From NCBI GenBank assembly GCA_001769035.1, contig MENF01000072.1, positions 1 to 39,495 on the forward strand: a stretch of 39,495 nucleotides of DNA, written 5' to 3'. How positions within the stretch are numbered: the stretch's first letter is position 1; every line of letters starts with the position of its first letter. The notes under the pieces were generated by a model that made no database searches, was not told the DNA's origin, and worked only from the letters and a program-made list of their open reading frames with translations. Positions 6,401 through 39,495 of the stretch are shown piece after piece. Source of the DNA: Bacteroidetes bacterium GWA2_32_17. GTDB lineage: Bacteria > Bacteroidota > Bacteroidia > Bacteroidales > GWA2-32-17. A program made the translations under genes and the position numbers.

Positions 6401-7255
6401 ACTAAGCTCAGAGATGCATATTGTGGTGTAACAACCGGTAATTTAAACACCTACATTTTATGTGATCCTGTTGGAGATGCAACTGATTATCAATACAATT
6501 TTGTAAATGTCGCACTCGGGTATGACCAAACAGTTACCAGGGGTAGTTCAACAACATCTTTATATTTAAATACTATCCCTGGTCTTCGGTATGAAAAAAC
6601 ATACGATGTAAAAGTTAAAGCTTATGTAAGTGGTGTCTGGGGAGAATATGGAACAATGTGCCAGATTACTTTGCCTTCATTTCCCTTAACCAAACTTAAT
6701 AGTACATCTTGTGGTGTTACTGTTGCCAATATTAATGCAATTATATATTGCAATGTAGTTGCAGGGGCATCCGATTATCAATATAATTTTATACATGCAG
6801 CGAGCGGGTACGATCAAACAAAAATCAGAGGTGCAAGTACTACTGCTTTAACTCTAAATACTGTTCCAGGAATTACAACAGGCAAAACATACGATGTTAA
6901 GGTAAAAGGATATGTCAACGGAATCTGGGGAGATTATGGCGTGGTTTGTCAGCTCACCATTGGTGGTTCCAAATCACTAACAAATAATAATTCAGGTATC
7001 AATGAAGAATTTATTAATGTGGTTGCATACCCAAATCCTTTTACTGAAAACATTACAATAGCACTGAAATCTTCTACACAGGATATTGTTAATGTTAGTG
7101 TGTTTGATGTTTCCGGTCGAATTGTTTCAACCTATTCTGTTGAACCTAATTCAGAATTTGAAATGGGAAGCGAATTATATAAGGGGATGTACTTTATTCA
7201 AGCTGTTGATGGCACGGGACAGAAAGCTGTTGTTAAAGTTATTAAAACGGAATGA
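3419..7255 (+). CDS. T9SS-exported beta-propeller/SprB-repeat surface protein
   Basis: 1278-residue secreted protein. A signal peptide (residues 1-19, ending VNA) is followed by about seven beta-propeller-like blades (25-470) marked by recurring W-[AVIS]-[KR] and GG.D.F.AK motifs. Three SprB-type repeats follow, each with a VTCNG or VSC-GG opening (about 480, 555 and 630). Then come five copies of a ~96-residue domain (about 701-1183) with TKLR-AYCG, YILCDPV, YQYNFV, GKTYDVKV, WG-YG and a closing CQ-TI. A T9SS type A sorting domain (about 1190-1278, YPNPF opening, GMYFIQ) should direct export and surface attachment. It is probably an adhesin or matrix protein; the ligand is unknown. Domains 2-3 and 4-5 are nearly identical, from a recent duplication. 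The gene downstream shares the 96-residue domain. Confidence 0.85.
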   Translation: MKHITLFILLAISSLLVNAQGWMWAKHFNGTGSNQPVSISQDNVGNYYVYGNFKNQVTQDAITLNSYSGSQDIFLAKYNPLGEVQWIKQIGGTGTETAYSLCFNSDYSSFYITGNFNNTFNIEGTYLNTIGGLDVFMAKFSANGTLDWAKNVAYGTINQTSSGICIDTDGNIVLVGMFLDNVSFYGGVYTLTSPIPSVRQNFIAKFNSSGIPLWSKMIDGDNAASYIRSVSTNNNEYYFSGQYMGTLDFGTSSITNSNSNRDGFVYKTNTNGDFQWVREISGSNYDEYIIRHVQDGTGNVYTGGYFYSSSLVIDSTATVTSNVAINNHYSGKSDIVILKYSSDGTLQWVKAYGSNKDDVISDIYATQNNVLFTGSYSDSINFNGFNLLNSGGSDAFTAVCSSYTGIVSSALKAAGPNNDYGKTCFYNSNERNFVTSGDFFSTSLTIGSYAPFTNSVQDLTTRDAYIARYGCFDSVGTSFNNVTCNGANNGTATATPTIGSAPYYYTWSNAETTATISNLTPGTYSVTVTTDISCSATASVTITQPNVLTSDSSQTNVSCYGGSDGTATVIPSGGTPSYSYLWSNSQTTATAIDLVAGIYNVTVTDNNSCTTTNSVTITEPAVLSATNSTTQVSCPGGSNGTATVTPTGGTTPYTYIWNSSPQQYTAQATNLTEGTYTCTVTDDCGTTLTKVCNVTTVPRPTTKLRTAYCGATISSLGGYILCDPVTNAVDFEYNFVHAGSGYDQTVTKGSGSTVLYMNTIPGLTYGKTYDVKVRAQTNDACGVIWGDYSTVCQLTIDNIPLTKLRDAYCGVTTGDLNTYILCDPVGGATDYQYNFVNVALGYNQTVTRGSSTSSLYLYTVPGLQYEKTYDVKVKAYISGVWGEYGTMCQITLPSFPLTKLNSTSCGDTVDNINAIVYCNIVAGASDYQYNFVHVGSGYDQTKIRGASTIALTLNTVPGISSGKTYDVKVKGYVNGVWGDYGVVCQLTIDNNIPLTKLRDAYCGVTTGNLNTYILCDPVGDATDYQYNFVNVALGYDQTVTRGSSTTSLYLNTIPGLRYEKTYDVKVKAYVSGVWGEYGTMCQITLPSFPLTKLNSTSCGVTVANINAIIYCNVVAGASDYQYNFIHAASGYDQTKIRGASTTALTLNTVPGITTGKTYDVKVKGYVNGIWGDYGVVCQLTIGGSKSLTNNNSGINEEFINVVAYPNPFTENITIALKSSTQDIVNVSVFDVSGRIVSTYSVEPNSEFEMGSELYKGMYFIQAVDGTGQKAVVKVIKTE
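5789..6943 (+). repeat. In-frame ~576-bp tandem duplication within the T9SS gene
   Basis: Copy 1 (5789-6364) and copy 2 (6365-6943) begin with the same GTTTGTCAACTTACTATAGA and stay nearly identical through two 96-residue domains. The lengths are 576 and 579 bases, both multiples of three. Nucleotide similarity between the two copies is far higher than between neighbouring domains, so the two-domain unit was duplicated as a block. Confidence 0.85.
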
Positions 7256-7543
7256 CGGAGTTGAATGCTTGTAAAGTTAAAATATTAAAATAATTAATTA
7301 CGGATTACGAGGTTTTTGAGCAGTGGGGTTTCTTTCATGTGGAGTCACTTAGGAAATAGCTTTTGGGACTACGAAGTACTAAGCAAAGCTAAATCAGAAT
7401 GGGTGAAGTGTTTTTTTCAGAGCAAACATGGAAACCTTTTTATGTTTTATTTAGTCTATATAGAAAATAGTTTTTAATGGAACATTAATTTCATTACTTA
7501 CGTAAAAACAAAACATGAATAATAACCTTAAAATATATAAAAT
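7256..7543. other. Spacer between the two T9SS protein genes
   Basis: 288 bases without a recognisable gene. A weak inverted repeat (AGCTTT near 7350 and AAAGCT near 7387) is present. I find neither a convincing TAnnTTTG box nor a terminator with a T-run, so whether the second gene has its own promoter is open. Confidence 0.35.
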
Positions 7544-10465
7544 ATGAAATCAATAATTACAATTATCGCACTGGTTTTAGCTTTTACTTTTTCGTTGGAA
7601 GCGGCTAATTTTAAAAATCTACCTACTACTATTATACAACCTGATGGCATTACTATTCAGTGTTTAGCTTCGGGTGATGAATTTTTTAATTATATACACG
7701 ATGCTAACGGTTATACTATTATTCAGGGGCAAGATGGATGGTATTATTATGCTATACTCGACAATACTGCAAAAGTAGTTCCATCTCAGATAAAAGTGGG
7801 AACAGGAAATCCAGCCGAAGCAGGTATCCCAAAAGGTGTAAAGATCTCCGAAAAAGCGTATAAAGCAAAAGTAGAAAAGTATCTTTCTCCTTTAAAAGTA
7901 AAAAACACAAAAGCACCGGCAACCGGATCATTTAATAATGTTGTTATATATATCAGGTTTGCTGATGATGCCGGAATGACAAATACCCGTCAGACTTACC
8001 TGAATATGTTTACCGGAACAGGAGGAGCTACTTATAGTGTCCAAGAATATTTTGAAAGTGTGTCATATAACCAGCTAACTGTAAATGCCGTTCATTTTCC
8101 AGATTGTGCTCCTACCACCAATCTTTCGTACCAGGACGCTAACAACAGGAATTATTATCAACCTTATAACGCTACAACCAACCCAGGCGGTTATGTAGAT
8201 GATAACGATTCAAGGGTTCGCGAACATACTTTGCTTAAGAATGCTATAAATTCACTGAAAACAGTAATTGAAGCAGAATTGACTGCCGGAGAACTTGACA
8301 TGGATAATAACGGAGATGTGGACAATATTTCATTTATTGTAGCAGGAGACAATGACGAATGGAGTGATCTGTTATGGGCACACAGATGGGCATTATATTC
8401 ATTTACTGTTACTATAAACGGAAAACAAGTATGGGATTATAATTTTCAGCCCGAAGCACAAAGCAGCAGTAAAACAACATGTCACGAGTTATTTCATTGT
8501 ATAGGTTCTCCTGATTTATATCATTATTATGATTATACTGAAGTTTCTCCTGCTTCGTATTGGGATTTGATGGAATACGGTTCGGGTTCGATGACTGCCT
8601 ATATGAAAGAACAGATTGGTGGATGGCTTACCATTCCCGAAATTTCCACTTCTGGAACATACACATTAAATCCTCTTGCTTCTTCAACTAATAATGCTTA
8701 TAAAATTGCATTTCCTAATTCTACTACAGAATTTCTGGTACTAGAATTCAGGAAGAAAACAGGAGTAGTAGAATCAAAGCTTTCTGCTTCTGCTGATGAA
8801 GGACTTTTAATTTACAGAATTAACACTGCTGTTTCAATAAATGAAGGAAACCGCAATGGACCACCCGATATGCTTTGGGTTTATCGCCCAAATGGCGACA
8901 CATATAATGATGGCGATCCGTGGAATGCAACATTCAGTTCAACACAAGGCAGAACTACTTTTAATGCAGCGTCAAATCCAGAATGTCATTTGTCTGACGA
9001 TGCTACATGGGGCGAAGTTTCTATTACAAATGTTGGTGCAGTTGGTGCAACCATTTCTTTTGATGTAACACTCCCATCCAGTGGATATAATATTACATTT
9101 AATATAAGCGATGAAACAAATCCAATTAATGCTGCAACTGTTGTTTGCGATGGAGTAACACAAGGTACTAACAGTTCAGGACAAACCATTTTTACAAACA
9201 AAACAAATGGAACCTACAATTACAGTGTCTCCAAAACCGGCTATAATACCCTAACCGGCACTGTTACTGTATTAAATGCAGATGCAGTAAAAAACCTTGT
9301 GATGACACTTGTTATACCTACCACCAAGTTGAGGGATGCCTATTGCGGCATTACCGTAGCCAATTTGAATGCTTACATTTTATGTGACCCAGTAACAGGC
9401 GCTGATGATTTCCAATATAATTTTGTAAATACAGCAAGTGGTTATAACCAAACAATTGCCCGCGGAGCCGCTACCACTTCAATATATTTAAGTACGGTTC
9501 CTGGACTGATATATGGAAAAACTTATGATGTAAAAGTTAAAGCTCATGTTGGTGGAAACTGGGGTAATTATGGTGCAATGTGTCAACTATCAACACCCAG
9601 TATTCCCAATACAAAATTACGGGATTCATATTGCGGAATCTCTGTAACAAGTCTAACAGGTTATATTCTTTGCGATCCGGTAGCTGGAGCAACTGATTTT
9701 CAATATAATTTTGTCAATGCAGGAATAGGATATGATCAAACCGTCACACGAGGCACTGCCACTACATCATTATATTTAAATACTGTTCCTGGTCTTGGAT
9801 TTGGTAATACATATGATGTAAAAGTAAGGGCAAAGGTTGGAGGTACATGGGGAAATTATGGAAGTATTTGTCAAATAACAATTCAGGGAAGTATTCCAAC
9901 AACTAAGTTAAGAGATGCTTATTGTGGAGTTACTTTATATAATAAAAACACTTATATTTTATGTGACCCAGTCAGTGGAGCTACTGATTATCAGTATAAT
10001 TTCGTACATATAGCAAGTGGATTCGATCAGACAGTTGCTAGGGGTATGGCGTCATCAGCTTTTTATTTAAGTACTGTTCCTGGCCTGACCTATGGTAAAA
10101 CATATGATGTTGTTGTCAGAGCAAAAATTGGAGGAAACTGGGGAACTTATGGTACAATGTGCCAAATTACTTTAACATCCCCATCTAAAGGCAGTAAATT
10201 TGCTGACCCCATTTCATTATCTGTACCTGTTATCATATATCCAAACCCATTCAATGATGAATTCAGAATCCAATGGGAAAATCATTATCCAGGAATAGCT
10301 GAAATTTCAATTTTTGACATCACTGGGAAAAAAGTATTTTTTACTGAATTTGATATTACCGAGGATAAAGTTTTTGGAGAGAATTTAATTCCTGGAATCT
10401 ATTTTGTTCAGATCAAAGCACCAAATAATGAACTAAACGTTTTTAAACTAATAAAAACAAAATAA
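7544..10465 (+). CDS. T9SS-exported M6-family metalloprotease
   Basis: 973-residue secreted zinc protease. A signal peptide occupies residues 1-20 (ending LEA), followed by a pro-region. The catalytic domain has HELFH at 314-318, continuing CIGSPDLY, the HExxHxxGxxDLY pattern of M6 (immune-inhibitor-A-like) peptidases; both zinc histidines and the glutamate are present. Next is a carboxypeptidase-regulatory-like beta domain (about 512-590, opening YNITFNISDE). Three copies of the TKLR-AYCG/YILCDPV domain follow (about 594, 689 and 786), the same domain as in the preceding gene. The C-terminus is a T9SS type A sorting domain (about 890-973, YPNPFNDEF). It probably acts at the surface or in the medium on host or environmental proteins. 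The reading frame is complete, with a terminator right after the stop. Confidence 0.88.
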   Translation: MKSIITIIALVLAFTFSLEAANFKNLPTTIIQPDGITIQCLASGDEFFNYIHDANGYTIIQGQDGWYYYAILDNTAKVVPSQIKVGTGNPAEAGIPKGVKISEKAYKAKVEKYLSPLKVKNTKAPATGSFNNVVIYIRFADDAGMTNTRQTYLNMFTGTGGATYSVQEYFESVSYNQLTVNAVHFPDCAPTTNLSYQDANNRNYYQPYNATTNPGGYVDDNDSRVREHTLLKNAINSLKTVIEAELTAGELDMDNNGDVDNISFIVAGDNDEWSDLLWAHRWALYSFTVTINGKQVWDYNFQPEAQSSSKTTCHELFHCIGSPDLYHYYDYTEVSPASYWDLMEYGSGSMTAYMKEQIGGWLTIPEISTSGTYTLNPLASSTNNAYKIAFPNSTTEFLVLEFRKKTGVVESKLSASADEGLLIYRINTAVSINEGNRNGPPDMLWVYRPNGDTYNDGDPWNATFSSTQGRTTFNAASNPECHLSDDATWGEVSITNVGAVGATISFDVTLPSSGYNITFNISDETNPINAATVVCDGVTQGTNSSGQTIFTNKTNGTYNYSVSKTGYNTLTGTVTVLNADAVKNLVMTLVIPTTKLRDAYCGITVANLNAYILCDPVTGADDFQYNFVNTASGYNQTIARGAATTSIYLSTVPGLIYGKTYDVKVKAHVGGNWGNYGAMCQLSTPSIPNTKLRDSYCGISVTSLTGYILCDPVAGATDFQYNFVNAGIGYDQTVTRGTATTSLYLNTVPGLGFGNTYDVKVRAKVGGTWGNYGSICQITIQGSIPTTKLRDAYCGVTLYNKNTYILCDPVSGATDYQYNFVHIASGFDQTVARGMASSAFYLSTVPGLTYGKTYDVVVRAKIGGNWGTYGTMCQITLTSPSKGSKFADPISLSVPVIIYPNPFNDEFRIQWENHYPGIAEISIFDITGKKVFFTEFDITEDKVFGENLIPGIYFVQIKAPNNELNVFKLIKTK

Positions 10466-10506
10466 AAAAGAGAGGCTGCTTTGTAAGGCAGCCTCTCTTT
10501 TTTTTA
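10464..10506. terminator. Bidirectional intrinsic terminator
   Basis: A perfect 11-bp stem, AGAGAGGCTGC (10469-10479) and GCAGCCTCTCT (10488-10498), has an 8-base loop. A-run on the left and T-run on the right let it work on both strands. It sits between the protease stop (10465) and the end of the converging glycan operon (10519). Confidence 0.95.
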
Positions 10507-10518
10507 TTAATCTGGTTA

Positions 10519-11481
10519 CTATTTATATAAAATAAACACTAATCTTTGAGTCAGGTAATCTTTAAAATAATTAATTTTAATTAATGGTTTTAATAAAACA
10601 GTAAAATATCTTATAAAAGGATATTTGTACACGGTATTACTAACATATAATAAAGGAATACTGATAAATTTTACCTTTGAAAAACCCAATTCATTTACAA
10701 TTGATTTAAATTCTTTATATTTTATTCCGTTAATACCTATACCACTTTGAACAACAGACCAATCACACAACGTTTCATTAGTCGGTTTATACCAATCCAA
10801 ACTTTCATCCCATGTTTTAATAATTTCCTGATATGCCTCATTTATAGTTTCAGGAGAAAACAACCATTCTAAAAAAGGAGTTTTGGTAACTGAACCAACA
10901 TGAGCACCCCCAAAGGGAAAATTATAAGAGGGGAAAACGAGAAAAGCCATTCCTCCTTTTCTTAAAACTCTTTTACATTCCATCAAAGTTTCTTTTACTG
11001 ATCTAACATGCTCAATAGTATCATGAGAAACTATAGCATCAAAAGATTCGTTTTCAAAAGGTAATTTCTCAGCATATCCCTGAAAAAACTTAAATTTAAC
11101 CTTAGAATTATAATCTGATAAAAAAAAGTTTGCTGTTTCAACCGAACTTTTATTTACATCGATACCGTAAAACTCGTTTACTTCCCATTTTTCTCCATCT
11201 GCAATTGTTTTACCACCAATACCACATCCTAAATCAAGTACTTTTTTCCATATCAAATTTTCTTTAAGTGCTACCGAAGGAAAATAAAGATCATATGGCT
11301 TTCTATTACCTTCAATTATATTGTTCTTTACTAACTTATTTAATAGCACATTCTTTGAATCCTGAGATAATGAAGTAAATTTAGGATGACGAAATATCTC
11401 TGAAACAAAATGTTCTTCCTGATATTTAGGTTTATTAGGAAAAAGATTCATAAAGAATTTTGCAATAACAGCTTTTTTCAT
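10519..11481 (-). CDS. Class I SAM-dependent methyltransferase
   Basis: 320 residues. The SAM-binding motif I is VLDLGCGIGG at 81-90, followed by an acidic strand end (GIDVN, 106-110) and the motif around SHDTIEHV (152-159), typical of small-molecule methyltransferases of the Methyltransf_11/25 type. It probably methylates a sugar or lipid-linked glycan intermediate. It is the last gene of the glycan operon, six bases after the acyltransferase gene, with the shared terminator just beyond. The exact substrate cannot be read from sequence. Confidence 0.8.
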   Translation of the reverse strand: MKKAVIAKFFMNLFPNKPKYQEEHFVSEIFRHPKFTSLSQDSKNVLLNKLVKNNIIEGNRKPYDLYFPSVALKENLIWKKVLDLGCGIGGKTIADGEKWEVNEFYGIDVNKSSVETANFFLSDYNSKVKFKFFQGYAEKLPFENESFDAIVSHDTIEHVRSVKETLMECKRVLRKGGMAFLVFPSYNFPFGGAHVGSVTKTPFLEWLFSPETINEAYQEIIKTWDESLDWYKPTNETLCDWSVVQSGIGINGIKYKEFKSIVNELGFSKVKFISIPLLYVSNTVYKYPFIRYFTVLLKPLIKINYFKDYLTQRLVFILYK

Positions 11482-11487
11482 TTTTAT

Positions 11488-11913
11488 TTAATTTGAAATT
11501 ATTTTGCCATACTTACTTGTTTTCACGTTTTCACGTATCACTTTTGCGGGATTTCCTGCTGCTATACAATTTGAAGGAATATCCTTTGTAACAACAGATC
11601 CTGATCCAATGATTACCTCATCACCAATTTTTATACCTGCCATGATTATAGCATTAGCACCTATAAAGCATTTTTTACCGATATAGGTATCTGTCTTCAA
11701 ACTCCTGCTGAAATCATGAGAAAAAATTATTGCACCTGAAGCAATATAGGATTCTGCATCTATATGTATTCCTTTAGGAAAAGTTTTATCAAGTTTTGCC
11801 CCATACGAAATTCTTGCTTGTTTTGAAATATCCATCTTATACAACTTTGTTAAAAAAAAGTGCCTGATGGAAATCATTATAAATCGGATTAACTCACGAA
11901 TTTTAATAATCAT
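11488..11913 (-). CDS. Hexapeptide-repeat acyltransferase (WcaF/CatB-like)
   Basis: 141 residues forming a left-handed beta-helix. Hexapeptide-type repeats run through most of the chain (ISYGAKLD, IHIDAESYIASGAII, TYIGKKCFIGANAIIMAGI, VIIGSGSVVTKDIPS), ending in the typical NCIAAGNPAKVIREN cap. The family O- or N-acetylates sugars using acetyl-CoA. It is short for the family, which suggests a compact trimeric enzyme. It sits five bases after the alpha/alpha-barrel gene and probably acetylates the polymer repeat unit. Confidence 0.82.
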   Translation of the reverse strand: MIIKIRELIRFIMISIRHFFLTKLYKMDISKQARISYGAKLDKTFPKGIHIDAESYIASGAIIFSHDFSRSLKTDTYIGKKCFIGANAIIMAGIKIGDEVIIGSGSVVTKDIPSNCIAAGNPAKVIRENVKTSKYGKIISN

Positions 11914-11918
11914 ATAAA

Positions 11919-13088
11919 TTATTTATTGTTTTCAGATAACGAAAGAAAATAAAAAGACATTCCGTACATTACCCAAGCCTGTCCCCATCTCATATAGGGA
12001 ATTCTTGATACACGTCCTGGATTAATCTGGTAATAAAAATACGAGGATTTTTTATCCTGCATATTATTAATCATCCAGCCCATTACCTTATCTGCAATTT
12101 GTTTATTATCCTTAAACACTCCTAATCTGAATAAAGTAGTAAACAACTGAGCCGGACAGTGTATATCAATAGGATATGTTTTATTATCATAATATTTTGG
12201 TGTGCCGTCAGAAAGAAAAAAATTCTTCATGTAATAATCAAAACCTAACTTTACGTTTTCCTCAAAGGATCTGTCATTCGTATATTTCATATATTCAGAA
12301 ATACTTTCCAGTTTATAACCTGTGTGAAAACTGTCAACCCAGTTTTGAATCGGGTCTTCACCAAAAAGCCAGGATCCATTATCCCGCTGAGTACTTACAC
12401 AAGCAATAACCGAAGATTTTGCTGCTTCATATAAAGTTAAATCCTTATTATAGGAATATACTCTTGCAAGTAACTTACTACCGAGTAAAGATGCATTATA
12501 TACCCTCATATTATCCAACGGCGAATATGAAAAAATAAATCCATTGTTCCGATTTGTTCTGTTTAAATCATTTAAAATGAATTTACAACTGCTTTCAGCA
12601 GCTTCATAATATTGTTTTTCTCCCGTACAATCATATGCATCAAGCAAGGAACATGCAACAAATGAAGTGGCAACAATAGTAGGTGTATATTTAGGCATGT
12701 ATTCCAACCGGGATTGCCAGTCAAAATTATAACCCCAACACGAACCCGAATATCCTGTTGATTTAACTCCCAGAATTTTTTTTGCAAGCAAATGAATCAT
12801 CTTTAATGCTTCTGGATCTTTATTTGTTTTATATATATTGCAATATGCTGTTAAGAACAAACCCAATCCTTTTGGATTATATCCTTTATCAACCAAAGTT
12901 ATCTTTCTGAAATTTATATGACTTCTTTTAAAAAGCTGTATCCATGCTAGTCTTAAAATCCTGAAACGATGCATTTGAAAAAACCTGAAAACTCTACTAT
13001 TTAACCCATCATAAGGATCCCAACCCCGAAAATCCTCTTTTTCGCAGTAGTTCTTTAGTTTATTGAAAGATTGAATTATTGTATGCAT
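11919..13088 (-). CDS. Alpha/alpha-barrel (six-hairpin-like) protein, function unknown
   Basis: 389 residues, largely helical, with aromatic-rich helical-hairpin segments repeated along the chain (for example CWGYNFDWQSRLEYMPKY, GSWLFGEDPIQNWVDSFHTGY and RWGQAWVMYGMSF). This resembles alpha/alpha-toroid enzymes such as six-hairpin glycosidases or uronyl epimerases. Homologues in glycan clusters often carry an unsupported delta-aminolevulinic acid dehydratase label, which I do not endorse. No signal peptide is seen, so a cytoplasmic role on a glycan precursor is possible. I cannot name the activity. Confidence 0.55.
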   Translation of the reverse strand: MHTIIQSFNKLKNYCEKEDFRGWDPYDGLNSRVFRFFQMHRFRILRLAWIQLFKRSHINFRKITLVDKGYNPKGLGLFLTAYCNIYKTNKDPEALKMIHLLAKKILGVKSTGYSGSCWGYNFDWQSRLEYMPKYTPTIVATSFVACSLLDAYDCTGEKQYYEAAESSCKFILNDLNRTNRNNGFIFSYSPLDNMRVYNASLLGSKLLARVYSYNKDLTLYEAAKSSVIACVSTQRDNGSWLFGEDPIQNWVDSFHTGYKLESISEYMKYTNDRSFEENVKLGFDYYMKNFFLSDGTPKYYDNKTYPIDIHCPAQLFTTLFRLGVFKDNKQIADKVMGWMINNMQDKKSSYFYYQINPGRVSRIPYMRWGQAWVMYGMSFYFLSLSENNK

Positions 13089-25492: not shown

Positions 25493-26371
25493 TTAATGGT
25501 TCTTTAGTTCATTGAGAATTAATTCTGGGTTTAATTCAATTTTAGAAAAAGCGAACCATTTCTTACCCAAGTCTTTTAATGAAGCACCTATATGATAAAT
25601 TATTTTTTCGTCGACTATTAAAAATCTATCGTGCGATTTATTAAATACTTTTACCTCGATTGATTCATATTGAGCATTGTGTTTATTAATATCTAATTCC
25701 AGTTGTTTAGAAATAGCTTTGGTAAATATTGTAGTCTTTACGCCTGTTTTTCGTTTTGTTAATAATGTCAATACTGTTTCATCAATATAATTATCAATTA
25801 AAATTATTGATGATTTAGCCTCTTTTATAAAGGAAGATACTTTATCATAGGCATCAAAAATTTGTCCATCGAAGAAAATACCTTCATGGGGTGGCAAACT
25901 TGTTTTGATATGAACATCAAATTCTGATGATTTTTGCTCTAATGAATAAACTTTGTTTTCGAGTTTTTCAATTCTTTGATTTATAGCGTATCCTTTTAAC
26001 AAATATTCTTTTAAAACTTTATTTGCCCAAATACGAAACTGAGTACCACGTAATGAATTCACTCTATATCCTACTGAAATAATTGCATCTAAATTATAAA
26101 GTAATAATTTTCGTTTTACTTCACGTTTACCTTCATTTTTAACTACCGAGTATTCCTCGGAAGTTGCTATCTCATCTAATTCCTGTTCTTTATATATGTT
26201 TTTCAGGTGCAAAGCAATATTATCGGTAGAGCAATCAAATAATTCAGACATTTGTTTTTGTGAAAGCCAAATAGTCTCATTTTCAACTCTTACTTCAATT
26301 TGAAAAGCATGGCTATTAGAAGTTTGATACAATATTATTTCACCCTGGTTGTTGTTTGAATTTTCTTTCAT
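25493..26371 (-). CDS. RhuM-family protein with C-terminal single-HKD-like domain
   Basis: 292 residues. The N-terminal half is a virulence RhuM family domain (about 12-130) with IWLSQKQMSELF (34-45) and the hallmark YNLDAIISVGYRVNS.RGTQFRIWA (92-116). A short coiled segment (about 131-150) follows. The C-terminal domain (165-280) has ILIDNYID (190-197) and HDRFLIVD (247-254), an H-x-[KR]-x4-D motif like one half of a phospholipase-D-type nuclease, with KFA-like strands after it. RhuM proteins occur in mobile and defence contexts with unclear function. It interrupts the sugar operon between ptmE and legF and is framed by a duplicated 29-bp gene end, so it is a late arrival. Confidence 0.75.
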   Translation of the reverse strand: MKENSNNNQGEIILYQTSNSHAFQIEVRVENETIWLSQKQMSELFDCSTDNIALHLKNIYKEQELDEIATSEEYSVVKNEGKREVKRKLLLYNLDAIISVGYRVNSLRGTQFRIWANKVLKEYLLKGYAINQRIEKLENKVYSLEQKSSEFDVHIKTSLPPHEGIFFDGQIFDAYDKVSSFIKEAKSSIILIDNYIDETVLTLLTKRKTGVKTTIFTKAISKQLELDINKHNAQYESIEVKVFNKSHDRFLIVDEKIIYHIGASLKDLGKKWFAFSKIELNPELILNELKNH

Positions 26372-33770: not shown

Positions 33771-34466
33771 TTACATTTTTCCAATCATCAGTTTCCAAAA
33801 GAACTTCATTAAAATAATTTGTCTGCCAACACGTGCAGGTTGTTTTGCCAGCCGATAAAACCATTCTAAACCAAATTTAACAAAAAAGACAGGTGCTCGT
33901 TTAACTTTCCCTGTATAAACATCAAAACTACCACCTAAACCTTGATAAATTGCTTCATGAGAAGCAAATAAATCCTGCATTAAATATTCTTGTTTTGGAG
34001 AACCCATAGCAACAAAAACGATTTCAGGTTTTAAATACTTTAAATCGGCCTTTAGTTTATCTAAGTCGCCATCTTTAAAAAAACCGTTTCTATACCCTTT
34101 AATGTTTATTTCCGGAAAATCTACCTTCAACTTTTTAACTGTTGTCTCAATAACTTCAGTTGTGCTACCTATTAAATAAAAACTATGAGAATGATTTAAA
34201 GTTTTCACAATTTCAAACCATAATTCTACGCCTGGAATTTTTATTGCTCCTTTAAATCCTTTTTTCTTTAAAGCCCAAACGGCACCAACTCCATCAGAAT
34301 AACCTGTATTTGCATTTATCAATGTCTTTAGCTTTTCATCGCTTCGCATTATTTTTTCTGCATTTACTGCAACAAGTATAGTGTTATGAGATTGAATATA
34401 TGAAACGACATCTTTCTTACTTGTAAAGGTGTAAGTTCGGAGGCCGTTGAGAAAATGATTGTTCAT
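33771..34466 (-). CDS. WecG/TagA/CpsF-family glycosyltransferase
   Basis: 231 residues, typical GT26 length. Conserved segments are VNAEKIM (34-40), GYSDGVGAVWALK (55-67, the catalytic-type DG pair), the GGSFDVYTGKVKRAP region (about 188-202) and VFVAMGSPKQE (150-160). The family adds the second sugar (for example ManNAc) to a lipid-linked first sugar at the membrane. It is the first gene of the glycan cluster on this strand. No initiating phosphoglycosyltransferase is present in the window. I see no clear TAnnTTTG box in the 98 bases upstream. Confidence 0.87.
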   Translation of the reverse strand: MNNHFLNGLRTYTFTSKKDVVSYIQSHNTILVAVNAEKIMRSDEKLKTLINANTGYSDGVGAVWALKKKGFKGAIKIPGVELWFEIVKTLNHSHSFYLIGSTTEVIETTVKKLKVDFPEINIKGYRNGFFKDGDLDKLKADLKYLKPEIVFVAMGSPKQEYLMQDLFASHEAIYQGLGGSFDVYTGKVKRAPVFFVKFGLEWFYRLAKQPARVGRQIILMKFFWKLMIGKM

Positions 34467-34564
34467 TTTGATAAGTCAATAAAGTCTGAAAGTCAATTTT
34501 GAGTTGTGTGTCCCTTCGAGTTTGCTTCGCACCTCGGGTGACAGGGGAGTGTGGGGAGTTGAGT
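34467..34564. other. Spacer between cassette array and glycan operon
   Basis: 98 bases with a GC-richer stretch (about 34510-34560, containing CACCTCGGGTG) that resembles dispersed Bacteroidota hairpin repeats. A promoter for the glycan operon would be expected here, but I cannot identify one. Confidence 0.4.
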
Positions 34565-34997
34565 TTATTTTATAACTTCCCAGTGTCCACCTTTGTCAGG
34601 GCCAATGCGTTTAATAAGTTTTTTTTCTTTTAATATTGCCAACCATTTCTCAATAGCTCTTGTTGACATATTCAACTGTATAGCCATTTCGGCAATAGTA
34701 ATCTCATATTGCTCTTTAATTAAAGAAATTATTTTCTCCGAACTTTTCTCCGAACTTTTCTCCGAACTTTTCTCCGAACTTTTCTCTACAGTTTCTCCCA
34801 CAGTTTTCTCTGATTTATCTATGGCTTTATCAAGAATATTATTACTTTCATTAACTTTTATTCTAATAAAATCGGTTGAATCTTTAATTTCAAAAGAAAT
34901 ATTTTTGTATTTGGAAAACCAATTTCTAAGTCGTTTAAAACCGGTTCCGTATTTTTCAATATCGCCTGTAAGATAAAAAACTTCGATAAGTAATTTA
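34565..34997 (-). pseudogene. Cassette B: start-less regulator tail, SSEK repeat + winged helix
   Basis: Open on the minus strand from the stop of cassette C to its own stop, without a plausible start at the 5-prime end. The 5-prime module (LLIEVFYLTGDIEKYGTGFK...DFIRIKVN) corresponds to the end of an HATPase_c_4-type domain and is almost identical in DNA to cassette C. Four 12-bp units (34732-34779) encode SSEK repeats. The tail is a winged helix (ITIAEMAIQLNMSTRAIEKW, then KRIGPDKGGHWEVIK) nearly identical to that of cassette D. It therefore shares its front with C and its back with D. An internal ATG could give a 78-residue tail peptide; expression is not shown. Confidence 0.75.
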
Positions 34998-35406
34998 ATT
35001 CTGAATTATTTTCCAATATCCGCCTTTTGCTTTTCCCTGTCGTATTATCACGCCTTTTGCTTTTAGTTTGTTTATGTTGTCCAGTACTTTTCGTTTTGAA
35101 ATGCCGATATTTTCAGCTATTTGTGACATTGAAATCATTTTGTTTTGCTCTATTAGTTTCAATATTTTTTGTTGATTTTCTGTCAGGCTATCGGGGACCT
35201 TATCGGGGACTTTATCGGGGACTTTATCGGTATCGTTATCAAGAATATTCTTAATTTTATTAACTTTTATTCTAATAAAATCAGTTGAATCTTTAATTTC
35301 AAAAGAAATATTTTTGTATTTGGAAAACCAATTTCTAAGTCGTTTAAAACCGGTTCCGTATTTTTCAATATCACCTGTAAGGTAAAAAGCTTCTGTAAGT
35401 AATTTA
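34995..35406 (-). pseudogene. Cassette C: start-less regulator tail, DKVP repeat + winged helix
   Basis: Open from the stop of cassette D to TAA at 34995-34997. The 5-prime module (LLTEAFYLTGDIEKYGTGFK, then DSTDFIRIKVN) is shared with cassette B. Three 12-bp units plus a degenerate one (35189-35236) encode DKVP repeats. The tail (MISMSQIAENIGISKRKV, then GKAKGGYWKIIQN) is found in no other cassette here. No start codon at the 5-prime end. Confidence 0.72.
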
Positions 35407-35810
35407 ATTCTGAATTATTTCCCAGTGTCCGCCTTTGTCAGGTCCAATGCGTTTAATGAGTTTTTTTTCTTTTAATATTGCCAACCATTTCTCAACAGCC
35501 CTTGTTGATATATTTAAATGTACCGCCATTTCTACAATAGTAATATCAGATTGCTCTTTAATTAAAGAAATTATTTTCTCCGAACTTTTCTCCGAACTTT
35601 TCTCCGAACTTTCTCCCACAGTTTTCTCTGATTTATCTCGCGATTTGTCAAAAACATTAATACTAACATGTGGTTCATTCAACCCCTCATTTTTTAATTT
35701 ATTAATGCCGGTTAACTCAAAAACAATTTTCACCACTCCATGTTCTTCATAAAAATTGGGTTCTGGAATATTGGCAGTTTTACATTCGTTAATAATATTA
35801 ATTGTGCTTA
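35404..35810 (-). pseudogene. Cassette D: start-less regulator tail, mosaic of two types
   Basis: Begins just after the stop of cassette E with NIINECKTANIPEPNFYEEH, the 5-prime module of cassettes E to H, and continues VVKIVFELTGINK. It then joins a linker with three 12-bp SSEK units (35574-35609) and the winged helix of cassette B (ITIVEMAVHLNISTRAVEKW, then GGHWEIIQN). Front and back thus belong to different families in this array. A GTG at 35736 could start a 110-residue product, but no start covers the full frame. Confidence 0.75.
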
Positions 35811-36145
35811 AATGGCATAGTATCCTCCTGTCTTTTTACTGCCACGACGCTCAATTATACTTAATTTAAGCAAAACTCTAATATGTTTATCAACTGTGCT
35901 AAACGGGATATTAAGTTTTTTTGAAATCAAACTGGCATTAATACCGGGTTTTAGTATTATTTCTTTAAAAACTTTCTGTTGTCCTTTATTTAATTCGCCA
36001 TTTAATTCGCCATTTAATCCGCCATTTTGAAATTTATTTACGCCGGTTAACTCAAAAACAATTTTCACCACTCCATGTTCTTCATAAAAATTAGGTTCAG
36101 GAATATTGGCAGTCTTACATTCATTAATAATATTAAGCGCACTTA
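35808..36145 (-). pseudogene. Cassette E: start-less regulator tail, LNGE repeat + winged helix
   Basis: Open from the stop of cassette F, beginning ALNIINECKTANIPEPN. Three 12-bp units (35989-36024) encode NGGL/NGEL repeats. The winged-helix tail (INASLISKKLNIPFSTVDKH, then RRGSKKTGGYYAI) is closely related to cassette G. No start codon at the 5-prime end; a GTG at 36071 gives an 87-residue internal frame. Confidence 0.72.
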
Positions 36146-36529
36146 AATGGCATAGTACCCCCCCGTTTTACTATTTCCTTTAAATTCAATTTTGTCACTT
36201 TCTTTTAATTTTTTAAGCCATCGTTCAATTGTTTTATTAGACTTGTTTATTTTTTTTGCTAAAAAAGGAACTCTTTGACCAGAGTGTTTTTTAATTATAA
36301 TTAGTAGCTCATTTACTCCCTCATTTACTCCCTCATTTACTCCCTCATTTACTCCCTCATTTACTCCCTCATTTTGAAATTTATTAATGCCGGTTAACTC
36401 AAAAACAATTTTCACCACTCCATGTTCTTCATAAAAATTAGGTTCAGGAATATTGGCAGTTTTACACTCATTAATAATATTAATTGTGCCTCTTCCCCAG
36501 CTTTCGATAAAACTTAAAGTATCTCCCAA
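36143..36529 (-). pseudogene. Cassette F: regulator tail, EGVN repeat + winged helix
   Basis: Follows the intact regulator gene directly: its conserved part (FIESWGRGTINIINECK) begins one base after that gene's stop, in another frame. A TTG at 36527-36529 would open a 128-residue frame overlapping the intact gene by 16 bases, so reinitiation is possible but unproven. Five 12-bp units (36311-36370) encode EGVN repeats. The tail (RVPFLAKKINKSNKTIERW, then GNSKTGGYYAI) is unique in the array. Confidence 0.72.
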
Positions 36530-37917
36530 TGTCCGCTTTTTTCTGTTCCAATTCTTTTAAGTTTACCATTTGCTTTTAAGTCTTTAATTTCTCTTAAAAT
36601 GGTACTTCTAGATACAATTAATTTTTTAGCTAATTGGCTTAACGTAATTCTTGAATCTTTTTTTATTAGATTCATTATTATTTGACCACGATCGGTGTCA
36701 TTATCGGTGTCATTATCGGTGTCATTATCGGTGTCATTATCGGTGTCATTATCGGTAACATTTTCAGTAACATTTTTATTGTCTTCTAATTTTTCTTTAT
36801 ATAAAGTTACCATAAAGCCGTTAAATACTTCTTCAAATTTTGGTTCTTTTATTCGATAGTCGTTACAAATTTTTTGTATTCGCATAATTCCCGAACCATA
36901 ACGTTCAATTAAGCCAATTTCTTTAAATGCCTTTGCAATTAAATTATTTCTGGTTTTAGAACTATATTTACCCGATAATAAATTTTTTATTGTTAGCCCT
37001 CCAAATAAATTTCCGGGATTATAAAATTCAATTCTATCGTCAAATATTTTTATAATACTGCCACTACTGTCTCTATAGTCGCGGTGTACAATCATATTTA
37101 CAACAATTTCTCTAATGGCATCAAGGGGGTAGTCAAAACGTTCTGTACGTTGCGGTTCGCCTGTAATAATAAATTCAACCATTAAATGCTTTTTAATAAA
37201 AGCAATAATTTCATCAGTTTCGCTAAACAAATCGGTATTTAATGAAATGCTATCAATAATTTTAGTTTCGCTTTTAAAACGCCCAACCTGCACGTCGCTT
37301 ATTAAGCAATAACCTTTAACAAACAACAAATAAGCACCAAAAGATAGCTGATTATTTCTGATAAACTCTAATTTGGATAGAAATACTAATCCTTTAAAAT
37401 CAGTTTTGTTTTGTGTACGTTGTTCTATTTTTTTAATAAAACCATTAACCTTTTCAATAGAAATATCTTTAACACTATGGTTTGGATCGGGATAAAAATC
37501 CCAGCTTGTATTAATTGTTCTTAAATGCTCGTTTGTAATTTCATTAATACTCATTAAATGGTTTGAATTAGCAACTCGTTTAAAAAATTTATTTTTAAAT
37601 GCAACTGGTTTTATTGGATATTCAATAACATCAAAAACAATAATATTTTTTTTATTTATCTCAACAGTAATCACTTCTGGAATAACTTGTGGTTCGGTAT
37701 TCTGTTTTATCTGATTGAGCCAGTTTTGAATGCTTTCGTCCGAAACATTTATTCCGGCAATTTTTTTATTATCACTTACGCCAACAATAACTTTTCCACC
37801 TTTTGTATTTGAAAATGCAACAATACTTTCAATAACTTCTTTACCAAATGAAGTTTTAAATTCAACGCACTCGTTTTCGCCATTATTAATAATATGTATA
37901 ATATCATTTTTATACAT
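36514..37917 (-). CDS. AlbA_2/HATPase-type DNA-binding regulator, intact member (A)
   Basis: 467 residues. An N-terminal AlbA_2 (Schlafen-type) domain has ECVEFKTSF (16-24) and SIVAFSNTKGGKVIVGVSD (31-49). The HATPase_c_4-type region shows EIVVNMIVHRDYR (270-282), FYNPGNLFGG (298-307), TRNNLIAKAFKEIGLIERYG (322-341) and GSGI. The linker (383-409) is VTEN/DNDT repeats from seven 12-bp units at 36691-36774. A C-terminal winged helix (about 410-467, ITLSQLAKKLIVSRSTILRE and SGHWEIL) ends it. Such proteins are usually called putative ATP-dependent transcriptional regulators; targets are unknown. It is the only complete gene in this array, with cassettes F to B directly downstream and G and H upstream. 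Confidence 0.82.
   Translation of the reverse strand: MYKNDIIHIINNGENECVEFKTSFGKEVIESIVAFSNTKGGKVIVGVSDNKKIAGINVSDESIQNWLNQIKQNTEPQVIPEVITVEINKKNIIVFDVIEYPIKPVAFKNKFFKRVANSNHLMSINEITNEHLRTINTSWDFYPDPNHSVKDISIEKVNGFIKKIEQRTQNKTDFKGLVFLSKLEFIRNNQLSFGAYLLFVKGYCLISDVQVGRFKSETKIIDSISLNTDLFSETDEIIAFIKKHLMVEFIITGEPQRTERFDYPLDAIREIVVNMIVHRDYRDSSGSIIKIFDDRIEFYNPGNLFGGLTIKNLLSGKYSSKTRNNLIAKAFKEIGLIERYGSGIMRIQKICNDYRIKEPKFEEVFNGFMVTLYKEKLEDNKNVTENVTDNDTDNDTDNDTDNDTDNDTDRGQIIMNLIKKDSRITLSQLAKKLIVSRSTILREIKDLKANGKLKRIGTEKSGHWEIL
36691..36774. repeat. 12-bp tandem repeat in the linker of regulator A
   Basis: Five perfect units of ATCGGTGTCATT followed by two degenerate ones. Unit length is a multiple of three, so changes in copy number would alter linker length without shifting the frame. 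Confidence 0.9.
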
Positions 37918-37936
37918 TGATAGTTTTATTAGAAAA

Positions 37937-38079
37937 TTAAAATTTTAATTTACCTATAAAATCATTATATTCTCTAAAATAATCATTCTCATTATATTTT
38001 TCAGAAGCAAACACTAAACAAATTGAACCAGATGAGAAATTTATTGTATTTTTTATTTTTGTTGAATAATTGTATAATA
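37937..38079 (-). pseudogene. Unidentified gene remnant between cassette G and regulator A
   Basis: An open frame without a start overlaps the end of cassette G in a different frame and ends at TAA (37937-37939). It encodes about 47 residues (STKIKNTINFSSG, then LVFASEKYNENDYFREYNDF) with codon use like a real gene. It looks like the 3-prime end of another gene left behind when cassette G was joined here. The family is not recognised. Confidence 0.35.
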
Positions 38080-38375
38080 CCCTCCTGTTTTTTTACTTCC
38101 ACGGCGTTCAATTAAATTTAATTTAAGCAAAACTCTAATATGCTTATCAATTGTGCTAAACTGGATATTAAGTTTTTTTGAAATCATGCTGGCATTCATA
38201 CCTTGTTTTAGTATTATTTCTTTAAAAATTTTTTGTTGCCCTTTATTTAACTCGCCATTTTGAAATTTATTAATGCCGGTTAACTCAAAAACAATTTTAA
38301 CTACTCCATGTTCTTCATAGAAATTTGGTTCAGGAATATTAGCAGTTTTACATTCATTAATAATATTAAGCGCAC
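38053..38375 (-). pseudogene. Cassette G: start-less regulator tail + winged helix
   Basis: Starts immediately after the stop of cassette H with ALNIINECKTANIPEPN and runs open to 38053. The linker is reduced to a single NGEL unit. The winged-helix tail (NASMISKKLNIQFSTIDKH, then RRGSKKTGGYYT) is about as close to cassette E as two alleles. It continues IIQQK into the neighbouring remnant sequence. Confidence 0.7.
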
Positions 38376-38795
38376 TTAAATGGCATAGTATCTTCCTGTT
38401 TTTTTACTGCCACGATGTTCTATTAATTGATTATCAATAAATATTTTCACATATTTATTTAAAGTAAAAATAGAAACACCTGTTTTTTCTGCAATAATCA
38501 TCAACTGAATACCGGGATTTTTGTTAATAATACTCAAAACATTTTTTTGCTTTTCATTTAATCTGCCATTTAATCTGCCATTTAATTCGCCATTTTGAAA
38601 TTTATTAATACCGGTTAACTCAAAAACAATTTTAACCACTCCATGTTCTTCATAGAAATTTGGTTCAGGAATATTACCAGTTTTACATTCATTAATAATA
38701 TTAATTGTACCTCTTTCCCAGCTTTCGATAAAACCTGCTTTATAAAAGATATCGGCCAACAATTTATTTCGTGGTTTTGATAGTTTTTTCTGCAA
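38376..38795 (-). pseudogene. Cassette H: regulator tail truncated by the DUF559 element
   Basis: 139 residues. It keeps more of the upstream domain than the other cassettes: LSKPRNKLLADIFYKAGFIE (about 5-24) is the typical C-terminal part of the HATPase region, so a full-length gene probably existed. Homology stops about ten bases before the DUF559 element (38807). Three 12-bp units (38557-38592) encode NGRL/NGEL repeats. The tail (MIIAEKTGVSIFTLNKYV, then GSKKTGRYYAI) is unique. The apparent start within a conserved region is unlikely to be native. Confidence 0.72.
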
Positions 38796-38806
38796 TGTGG
38801 GTTAAC

Positions 38807-39495
38807 GTTTTGTTTATATTCTAATCCGATTATATCGAATTAGTTTTTGATAAAAAAAACAAATGGCAAGTTTTGGTGCGGTAGTGTCCTTTAGGATTAA
38901 GGTGCGGGGTGGCAAAGTGCAAAAAAAATAAAAGGCAAGTTGTGATGGGTGGGGAGTTGGGGGTGAGGAGTTACCCACCCCTGCTCCTCCGTGGGAGGGG
39001 AGTGTATTGGGGGTATAATTCTGTATTATTAATATAATAAAATGTGAATAATATTACAAACGTTGTTAATTTGCAATATGTTATTACTTCTTGTTCACAT
39101 GCTTGTAGGGATTGCTGTTTTAGTTCCCCTCTTGGGATGGGTTAGGGGTGGGTTACTCTCGCCCAACACACCCATTTATTCTCACCTCCGTTTTTATCCA
39201 ATTCTCAATTACCAGTAACACATTACCCATATCTTTTTTTACTTCTAAATCATCGAAACGCAAAAAACTCACACCTTCGTTTTCTAATTCCTGCTGTCTT
39301 ATTTTATCTTGCTCGTATTTATTGTTATGGCTGCTACCATCAACTTCAATTGCAAGCATTAAATCCTTACAATAAAAGTCAACTATATAATTTAATATAG
39401 GCCGTTGCCGGTCAAAATCCATACCGAGTATTTTCTTTTGTTTTAGTTCGTTCCATAGTAGGACTTCAGATAAAGTCATGTTATTTCTAAGTTTT
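38807..39495. repeat. Dispersed DUF559/palindrome element, copy B (cut by window end)
   Basis: Same order as copy A: TTTTGTTTAT and TCTAATCCGAT at the left edge, the TTTTGGTGCGGTAGTGTCC block, a GATGGGTGGGGAG/CCACCCCTG stem, a CTCCTCC-GTG-GGAGGGG palindrome (38984-39000), an AT-rich spacer, then the DUF559 ORF. It has one palindrome unit fewer than copy A upstream of the ORF. It continues past the window. Confidence 0.78.
39153..39479 (-). CDS. DUF559 endonuclease-domain protein (Vsr-like), copy B, 5-prime end at window edge
   Basis: 108 residues from the ATG within the domain; the frame continues upstream past the window, as in copy A. The core motifs are the same (FDRQRPILNYIVDFYC and LAIEVDGSSH). 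It differs from copy A in only one residue of the core (G for N in KKILGMDF) and in the C-terminus, where the palindrome-encoded tail is replaced by INGCVGRE. Such similarity over protein and flanks means recent duplication. A nuclease function is inferred from the fold only. Confidence 0.75.
   Translation of the reverse strand: MTLSEVLLWNELKQKKILGMDFDRQRPILNYIVDFYCKDLMLAIEVDGSSHNNKYEQDKIRQQELENEGVSFLRFDDLEVKKDMGNVLLVIENWIKTEVRINGCVGRE

Follow-up and report, generated by a model that had tools for sequence, protein, structure and literature searches.

How do seven gene ends, all without a start and all readable to their stop codon, come to lie around one intact gene of a similar kind? This question is raised by contig MENF01000072.1 of Bacteroidetes bacterium GWA2_32_17 (assembly GCA_001769035.1, a draft of 234 contigs that is 95% complete), of which positions 1 to 39,495, the whole stretch of 39,495 nucleotides that was analysed, are called the window in the following. 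On its minus strand, from 38801 down to 34565, two partial copies (T1 and T2), a gap of 135 bp, the intact gene (gene I) and five further partial copies (T3 to T7) follow one another. A preliminary description of this DNA had proposed a reservoir of C-terminal cassettes which changes the target specificity of a regulator. We consider it probable that genes were replaced repeatedly at this locus, a place where exchangeable Schlafen-type genes keep landing, and that the 3' ends left behind form the present stack. Among the possible readings of the array, displaced 3' ends of a tail-swapping Schlafen-type family are the best supported one, and an active reservoir is not supported.

Gene I (36514..37917, minus strand) encodes a protein of 467 amino acids in which AlbA_2, HATPase_c_4 and helix-turn-helix (HTH) domains occur in this order, all above the curated Pfam cut-offs. 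SLFN_AlbA_2 covers residues 14-122 (PF04326, E 1.5e-21) and HATPase_c_4 residues 289-372 (PF13749, E 7e-25); a repeat linker and a winged helix at about 410-460 (HTH_11, E 2.5e-9) follow, and our own profiles for body, stub and winged helix match as well. T1-T7 are seven copies truncated at the 5' end. Each unit begins with a stub, which is the end of HATPase_c_4; a linker, for the most part of 12-bp tandem repeats, leads to a winged helix, and a stop codon closes the unit. The stub and winged-helix profiles, which were made in part from the array units themselves, match all eight units with E 1.1e-12 or better. By Pfam, every unit has a match to HATPase_c_4 or to an HTH family, which in some of them stays below the curated cut-offs.

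In all seven partial copies the reading frame is open from stub to stop, without internal stops or frameshifts. Six of the seven (T2-T7, not T1) start at the preceding stop codon or a few bases from it. An ATG that would give the whole unit is absent from T1-T7, and ATG, GTG and TTG codons are internal only. The layout given in the preliminary description, one intact gene with seven partial copies on one strand, open to their stops, without a credible start and mostly beginning near the previous stop, is therefore borne out by frames and profiles. It counted at least six different winged-helix sequences in the tails; these fall into five classes (T1; T2/T4; T3; T5/T7; T6), and gene I represents a sixth.

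Three types of stub can be distinguished: A in T1-T5, B in T6 and T7, and C in gene I. T1 (38376..38801) has the longest stub A (from KPRNKLL), a linker and a winged helix of class 1, with Pfam matches to HATPase_c_4 (E 2.7e-10) and HTH_24 (E 1.6e-6). T2 (38053..38403) and T4 (35808..36167) join stub A to a winged helix of class 2, and T3 (36143..36529) carries stub A directly after the stop of gene I, then a GVNE linker and class 3. T5 (35404..35835) is composed of stub A, a SEKS linker and class 5, T6 (34995..35414) of stub B, a PDKV linker and class 4, and T7 (34565..35005) of stub B, a SEKS linker and again class 5 (all on the minus strand).

Stub A is 91-97% identical in DNA among T1-T5, and stub B 96% between T6 and T7. 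The winged helices behind them are only 42-62% DNA-identical between units, with the exception of T2/T4 (88%) and T5/T7 (89%). T1, T3 and T4 have the stub in common at the left and the last 15 bases including the stop at the right, and differ in the middle. T5 combines stub A with the tail class that is found on stub B in T7; therefore tails and stubs have been reassorted. Stub C of gene I does not align with A or B in the way the A units align with each other.

Tail and body are uncoupled in the family as a whole. Relatives were collected in order-wide searches of 149 and 393 genomes, which cover best matches only and from which short orphan tails may escape. The fetched loci gave 75 intact genes, of which 74 entered the comparison of body and tail, 45 of them with repeat linkers. 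In this repeat-linker set the winged helices on bodies of 70-80% identity have a median identity of 32% (n=7), and those on bodies less than 30% identical a median of 33% (n=631). Conversely, winged helices which are 60-68% identical occur on bodies sharing only 17-26%. A weak overall correlation between body and winged helix persists (Mantel r 0.18, 51 genes with repeats). The group with plain linkers behaves more as expected for descent: bodies 90-100% identical carry winged helices with a median identity of 88% (n=19). The DNA similarity of gene I to its relatives in two other genomes (G019 and G046) breaks off no more than about 40 bp from the end of the stub profile: the query positions are 2031 and 2054, and the profile ends at about 2018. 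The five bodies closest to gene I (63-69% identical) bear winged helices that are 27-46% identical to its own.

The tails are not confined to these bodies. Similar tails end Fic proteins, identified by Pfam, in four genomes including that of the window (loci L133, L276, L277 and L279), and regular repeats of four residues are present in three of them (L133, L277 and L279). L278, the fifth of five candidates for such tails on other proteins, has no Pfam match at E 1e-6. In another genome, G064, the intact gene has Fic-like_C at its end instead. Over the length of the gene, DNA identity reaches 90% between two members from different families of the order (loci L205 and L199; genomes G068 and G174), and a gene of G113 is 81-82% identical over the body; no flank homology was found beyond one match of 32 bp. 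Single genes thus move between genomes. Between two further loci, L153 and L156, DNA identity is 90%, with the last 120 bp or so and the downstream flank unaligned, possibly a change of tail without repeats.

Displaced tails recur in other genomes. In G198 a second linker and winged helix follow directly after the stop of the intact gene. G155 has an orphan 85 bp past an intact gene, with a different type of stub. In G335 a gene that itself bears one in-frame stop is followed, after about 85-90 bp, by the beginning of an orphan whose linker contains a stop; the stubs of the latter pair are alike in protein and align in DNA over only 24 bp. Locus L173 consists of a truncated unit, an orphan 96 bp further on and a third repeat linker that begins at the orphan's stop. 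G064 shows a truncated unit, an intact gene and then an orphan; the stubs of the last two are identical at 156 of 168 nucleotides and their tails differ. The stack in the window is the largest we encountered. A scan of the genome contigs for stub A gave 41 loci, of which by profile only L173 has two winged helices on one strand; winged-helix matches of at least 30 bits occur in just 7 of the 41, so that this result applies to tail types within reach of the profile. A congeneric genome (G002, contig C55, L061, about 100-220) holds a lone 117-bp piece of stub A which is 92% identical to T1 and begins at nearly the same base; it follows a gene that resembles, by eye, an AAA_14 gene on contig C21 of the genome of the window. 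In L192 (G360) near-copies of one winged helix flank another family member on both sides.

A comparison within one genus is offered by G064 and G332, where 1256 aligned bases of the same locus are 94% identical. The main gene bears the same tail in both, so that no switch is seen since the split. Both genomes also have the orphan, with its frame open. Over 120 codons it shows 8.7 synonymous and 10.3 replacement changes, which gives a ratio of replacement to synonymous rates (dN/dS) of about 0.32, and the two orphans further differ by one whole-codon insertion or deletion in the linker and by their end. In G332 the main gene is truncated at its 5' end, and the stop of an AAA_14/DUF4143 gene lies 20 bp before the homology begins. 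Because this gene lost its 5' part beside an AAA_14/DUF4143 gene, one route to headless tails can be seen here. Homogenisation of the stubs in this pair was considered and rejected: gene and orphan differ at 8-11 of 156 positions, the two genes at 5 and the two orphans at 8.

The genome of the window (G000) itself contains at least three further orphan tails, of which contig C21 carries two and contig C167, close to its end, one; it has full-length relatives only on contigs C72, C155 and C134. C21 repeats the pattern of G332 with wecG as the target: one 3' fragment of this gene stands behind an orphan tail, another behind an AAA_14/DUF4143 gene. In G003, which belongs to the same genus, wecB and wecG are adjacent, with no array between them. 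The stretch of C21 from wecB to the last wecG fragment (3450-12901, L048), which resembles a place where single genes land, holds on one strand lone accessory genes (a RhuM-like gene and AAA_14/DUF4143 ATPases) together with two 3' fragments of wecG and two orphan tails.

The history that would account for these observations can be outlined as follows. The family combines AlbA_2 of the Schlafen type and the ATPase domain of a minimal histidine kinase with a winged-helix tail that can be swapped. Linker and winged helix would be traded among the members by recombination near the linker, and whole single genes move between genomes as well. On arrival of a new gene or tail, the older one would be reduced to stub and tail on the same strand just downstream, and the newcomer's stop codon would often abut the stub of the older gene. 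T1-T7 would then be the leftovers of at least two former kinds of gene, with stubs A and B, and gene I would be a separate occupant.

A simpler origin would be duplication debris, that is, one or two genes duplicated in tandem and decayed, with tails that differ by drift. This is unlikely for the array as a whole, although internal deletions are known in other members of the gene family and the joints do speak for some duplication. T1-T2, T3-T4 and T4-T5 are joined at one position, T5-T6 and T6-T7 at another and gene I-T3 at a third, and the shared joints (T1-T2 with T3-T4, T5-T6 with T6-T7) look tandem-duplicated. Of the six bases that follow the stop, four are not the same in T4-T5 as in T3-T4. 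The other two joints of the first kind are identical over 43 bp around the stop (T2 compared with T4), and the next 76 bp contain 8 differences. Because this block is identical and the following part diverged, a portion of the array may be the product of tandem duplication; alternatively, recombination may have carried the joint to units whose divergence took place while they were still in intact genes. However, drift hardly yields stubs of 91-97% identity beside winged helices of 42-62%. The preliminary description expected debris to collect stops and frameshifts at a neutral rate, and there are none: in 34 codons of stub A we count 12 synonymous and 2 replacement changes (neutral replacement share 0.775, P about 1e-6). 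The dN/dS values of the winged-helix pairs are 0.17 (T2/T4) and 0.19 (T5/T7), and the chance that three units all stay open at 0.3-0.45 substitutions per site is between 0.001 and 0.00008, indels uncounted. This pattern of changes speaks against long neutral decay. Both tests, synonymous bias and open frames, presuppose that the units diverged after the loss of their heads, which the identical joint block makes doubtful. A use of the orphans as such does not follow from them, because the joint may have moved in this way onto units already diverged.

The same open frames and the synonymous bias in the stubs and in T2/T4 and T5/T7 would also suit the functional reservoir of the preliminary description, from which tails are recombined onto an expressed gene to alter its recognition. 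So would the constant arms and different cores of T1, T3 and T4 and the orphan that has remained open in two congeneric species. We nevertheless regard such a reservoir as quite unlikely. Gene I does not share its stub with the array, and no close match to stub A or B was found among the full-length genes of the draft genome (the one on C134 matches T3 with 44% over 39 residues). Neither a switch nor concerted evolution of gene and orphan stubs is seen between G064 and G332. The tail as a module exchanged in evolution, after the model of CdiA and Rhs, is supported by the uncoupling of body and tail and by the recurrence of displaced tails; the array as present donor for gene I is not supported. 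Expression of the tails as small stand-alone DNA-binding proteins is very unlikely; internal ATG, GTG and TTG codons exist and the changes are of the purifying type, but these start codons differ in kind and place between units, and promoter-like sites (24 against 28.8 in shuffled sequences) and terminator-like sites (2 against 2.8) are not enriched in scans that fit this phylum poorly. Least credible of all is an assembly artefact joining repeats of several loci. The genome is a draft and many orphan tails in other assemblies sit at contig ends, but here each unit has its own tail or stub variants, the array lies inside one contig and similar abutting joints occur in other assemblies.

Several observations weigh against the stack of leftovers from replaced genes that we prefer, in addition to the possible tandem duplication. 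Each species is represented by one genome, G064 and G332 being the sole congeneric pair, and the assembly is a draft. The tails of the array reach at best 48-63% protein identity to those of the collected intact genes. One of the three best tail matches for T2 and T4 is L191, which has a body 64% identical to that of gene I. No recent transfer was caught, because the closest bodies bear other tails and the best tail matches do not exceed this range. The repeat-linker set has no pair of bodies more than 80% identical, so that its contrast with the plain-linker group rests on different ranges of divergence, and within the plain-linker group L156 departs from the rule, with bodies 91-96% and winged helices 39-43% identical. 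A stub or winged helix on the same strand within 600 bp downstream was found for only 3 of 89 intact genes (in the window, in G198 and, as a weak match, in L140), 83 of the 89 having at least 300 bp of downstream sequence and loci fetched by their place being excluded; leftover tails are therefore uncommon. The same count gave two upstream neighbours (in the window and, at a contig edge, in L191) and none on the opposite strand. Finally, many orphans elsewhere look like the result of an internal deletion or a break of frame, with the N-terminal piece still adjacent.

The linkers deserve attention because their repeats are conserved as DNA. In the window, 12-bp tandem repeats extend over 36691..36751 in gene I (NDTD) and 34736..34784 in T7 (SEKS), both with ends judged by eye, and over 36309..36373 in T3 (AATGAGGGAGTA), where the pattern is matched exactly at four overlapping places; all three lie on the minus strand. 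After near-duplicate tails had been collapsed from 332 to 152, of which 114 have exact tandem repeats and among which a few pairs from one genome remain (T5/T7; two tails of G098), the codons of repeats with the same tetrapeptide were identical in 344 of 408 cases. The codon identity of these residues in the winged helices would predict 199, and 20 of 21 types agree in direction. An earlier version that contained some duplicate rows had given 338 of 404. Straight after the repeats codon identity is 0.41-0.56 without a gradient, which means an abrupt edge and speaks against a whole block around the repeats having been shared recently. Matches to a degenerate pattern were obtained in 10 of the 393 genomes, and all matched units read AATGAGGGA[A/G/T]TA, the exceptions being one of the two loci in G055 and a single unit of G131. 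The reversed pattern, used as control, also matched in 9 genomes, five of them with true matches. Because the repeat arrays themselves fit this control pattern, only the choice of codons and not the number of matches was used.

The type of repeat follows the type of winged helix (Mantel r 0.34) more than the type of body (0.14). Conservation at the DNA level may indicate a role of the DNA itself, slow change by homogenisation, or both. From the sequences one could imagine that repeat linker and winged helix together form a mobile, self-addressed cassette, with the repeats as exchange port or as the site read by their own winged helix, so that Schlafen and Fic effectors would swap recognition tails and arrays would be stores of spare tails. 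We hold this to be rather improbable: homogenisation of tandem repeats could also explain the slow change, and upstream of the genes the own repeat shows no enrichment (8.7 of 12, against 9.0 for foreign repeats), so that operator copies at that place were rejected.

The preliminary description spoke of a regulator, and a winged helix is indeed present, but the label may be too narrow. A motif E-x4-E-[F]-K with a downstream G..D, the pattern for its last residue being broad, is present in 68 of the 74 intact genes; we take these to be the Schlafen catalytic residues. PADLOC gave only partial matches, to models of the pAgo type, CARF and WYL. A paper of 2026 treats the architecture of AlbA_2, minimal histidine kinase and winged helix-turn-helix as a Schlafen-family RNase (PMC12839542), and the three-part fusion described there is identical to that of gene I. 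Because of the Pfam domains, this paper and the acidic pattern in 68 of 74 genes, the tail would be the recognition or targeting part of an immune-type protein, and not that of a plain transcription factor. The accessible text of the paper concerns BREX-associated proteins and mentions neither tail exchange nor orphan tails, both of which are found here, and the array in the window adjoins polysaccharide genes.

A WecG-family glycosyltransferase is encoded downstream of the array (33771..34466, minus strand; PF03808, E 1.3e-44). The gap between T2 and gene I (37918..38052, minus strand) holds, by DNA comparison, the 3' end of a sugar gene of the FdtA type (WxcM-like): it is 76-81% identical over 74-102 bp to loci in G003, G004, G007 and G008, where the matches are the ends of open frames, two of which were checked by Pfam and proved to be FdtA. 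Polysaccharide-type genes (ABC-2 transporter, Wzy_C, WecG and others judged by eye) adjoin members or orphans in the window and in L001, L055, L105 and L297. A RhuM-family gene stands at 25493-26371 of the window among polysaccharide genes, and a related stretch occurs on C21 (73% DNA identity over 983 bp). Upstream of the array a DUF559 gene (39153-39479) lies at the contig end. For integron-like cassettes, Rfam has no match up to E 1 in 33800-39495, a search not aimed at attC or integrase. Carriage by phages was rejected, as viral contigs contain no close relative of gene I.

Replacement of parts of an expressed gene from silent cassettes by gene conversion is known in the pilS and vls types. 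For systems of this kind, hsdS included, an expressed recipient sharing both arms would be expected, and none was found in the draft genome. The switching of target-recognition domains in hsdS (PMC7394358) is similar in that a part recognizing DNA is recombined while the rest is kept and duplicated genes lie nearby. It differs in the exchanged part, which is here a C-terminal winged helix; also, no recombinase gene was noticed near the array, although none was searched for. In polymorphic toxin systems (PMC3482391) C-terminal diversity likewise arises by recombination with stand-alone cassettes, but the tails of the array are winged helices by Pfam and not toxin domains.

The closest likeness is to the orphan cdiA-CT and rhs-CT arrays of the contact-dependent inhibition (CDI) and Rhs systems (PMC3150448), in which a full gene is followed by C-terminal modules without a start, some with a stretch from upstream of the tail. 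In cdi loci up to eleven orphan modules follow, most of them without start signals (PMC3150448). Some resemble the main gene only upstream of the variable part, and the mechanism behind such arrays is given as unknown in the accessible text (PMC3150448). As in the array, the tails are unrelated to each other and related to the tails of full genes elsewhere, and one module may reach exactly to the start of the next (PMC3150448). Variable C-terminal modules on a conserved body across genomes are found in the repeat-linker set. A region before the tail that orphans share with the resident gene is absent here (A and B against C) and present in G064. In contrast to CDI and Rhs, the tail is a DNA-binding fold, no toxin and no immunity gene are present, and the units abut, leaving no room for a second gene. 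One deletion is reported to have fused an orphan onto the main cdi gene (PMC3150448), whereas no switch was found in our material. The likeness thus stands for the layout and the family-wide exchange, and fails for toxins, immunity genes and a stub in common with gene I; because all three are lacking, we do not file the array as a member of CDI or Rhs. For genes with AlbA_2 and HATPase_c_4, no description of tail exchange or orphan tails was found in the literature, subscription papers and preprints aside.

The exchange of C-terminal tips accompanied by orphans, known for contact-dependent toxins, is thus met here in Schlafen-type proteins, and the part that changes is a DNA-binding one. The coding repeats conserved at the DNA level at the point of exchange give a handle by which the mechanism can be tested. 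If the tail decides on trigger or guidance, recognition in this family would be changeable, and the leftovers would record how it changed.

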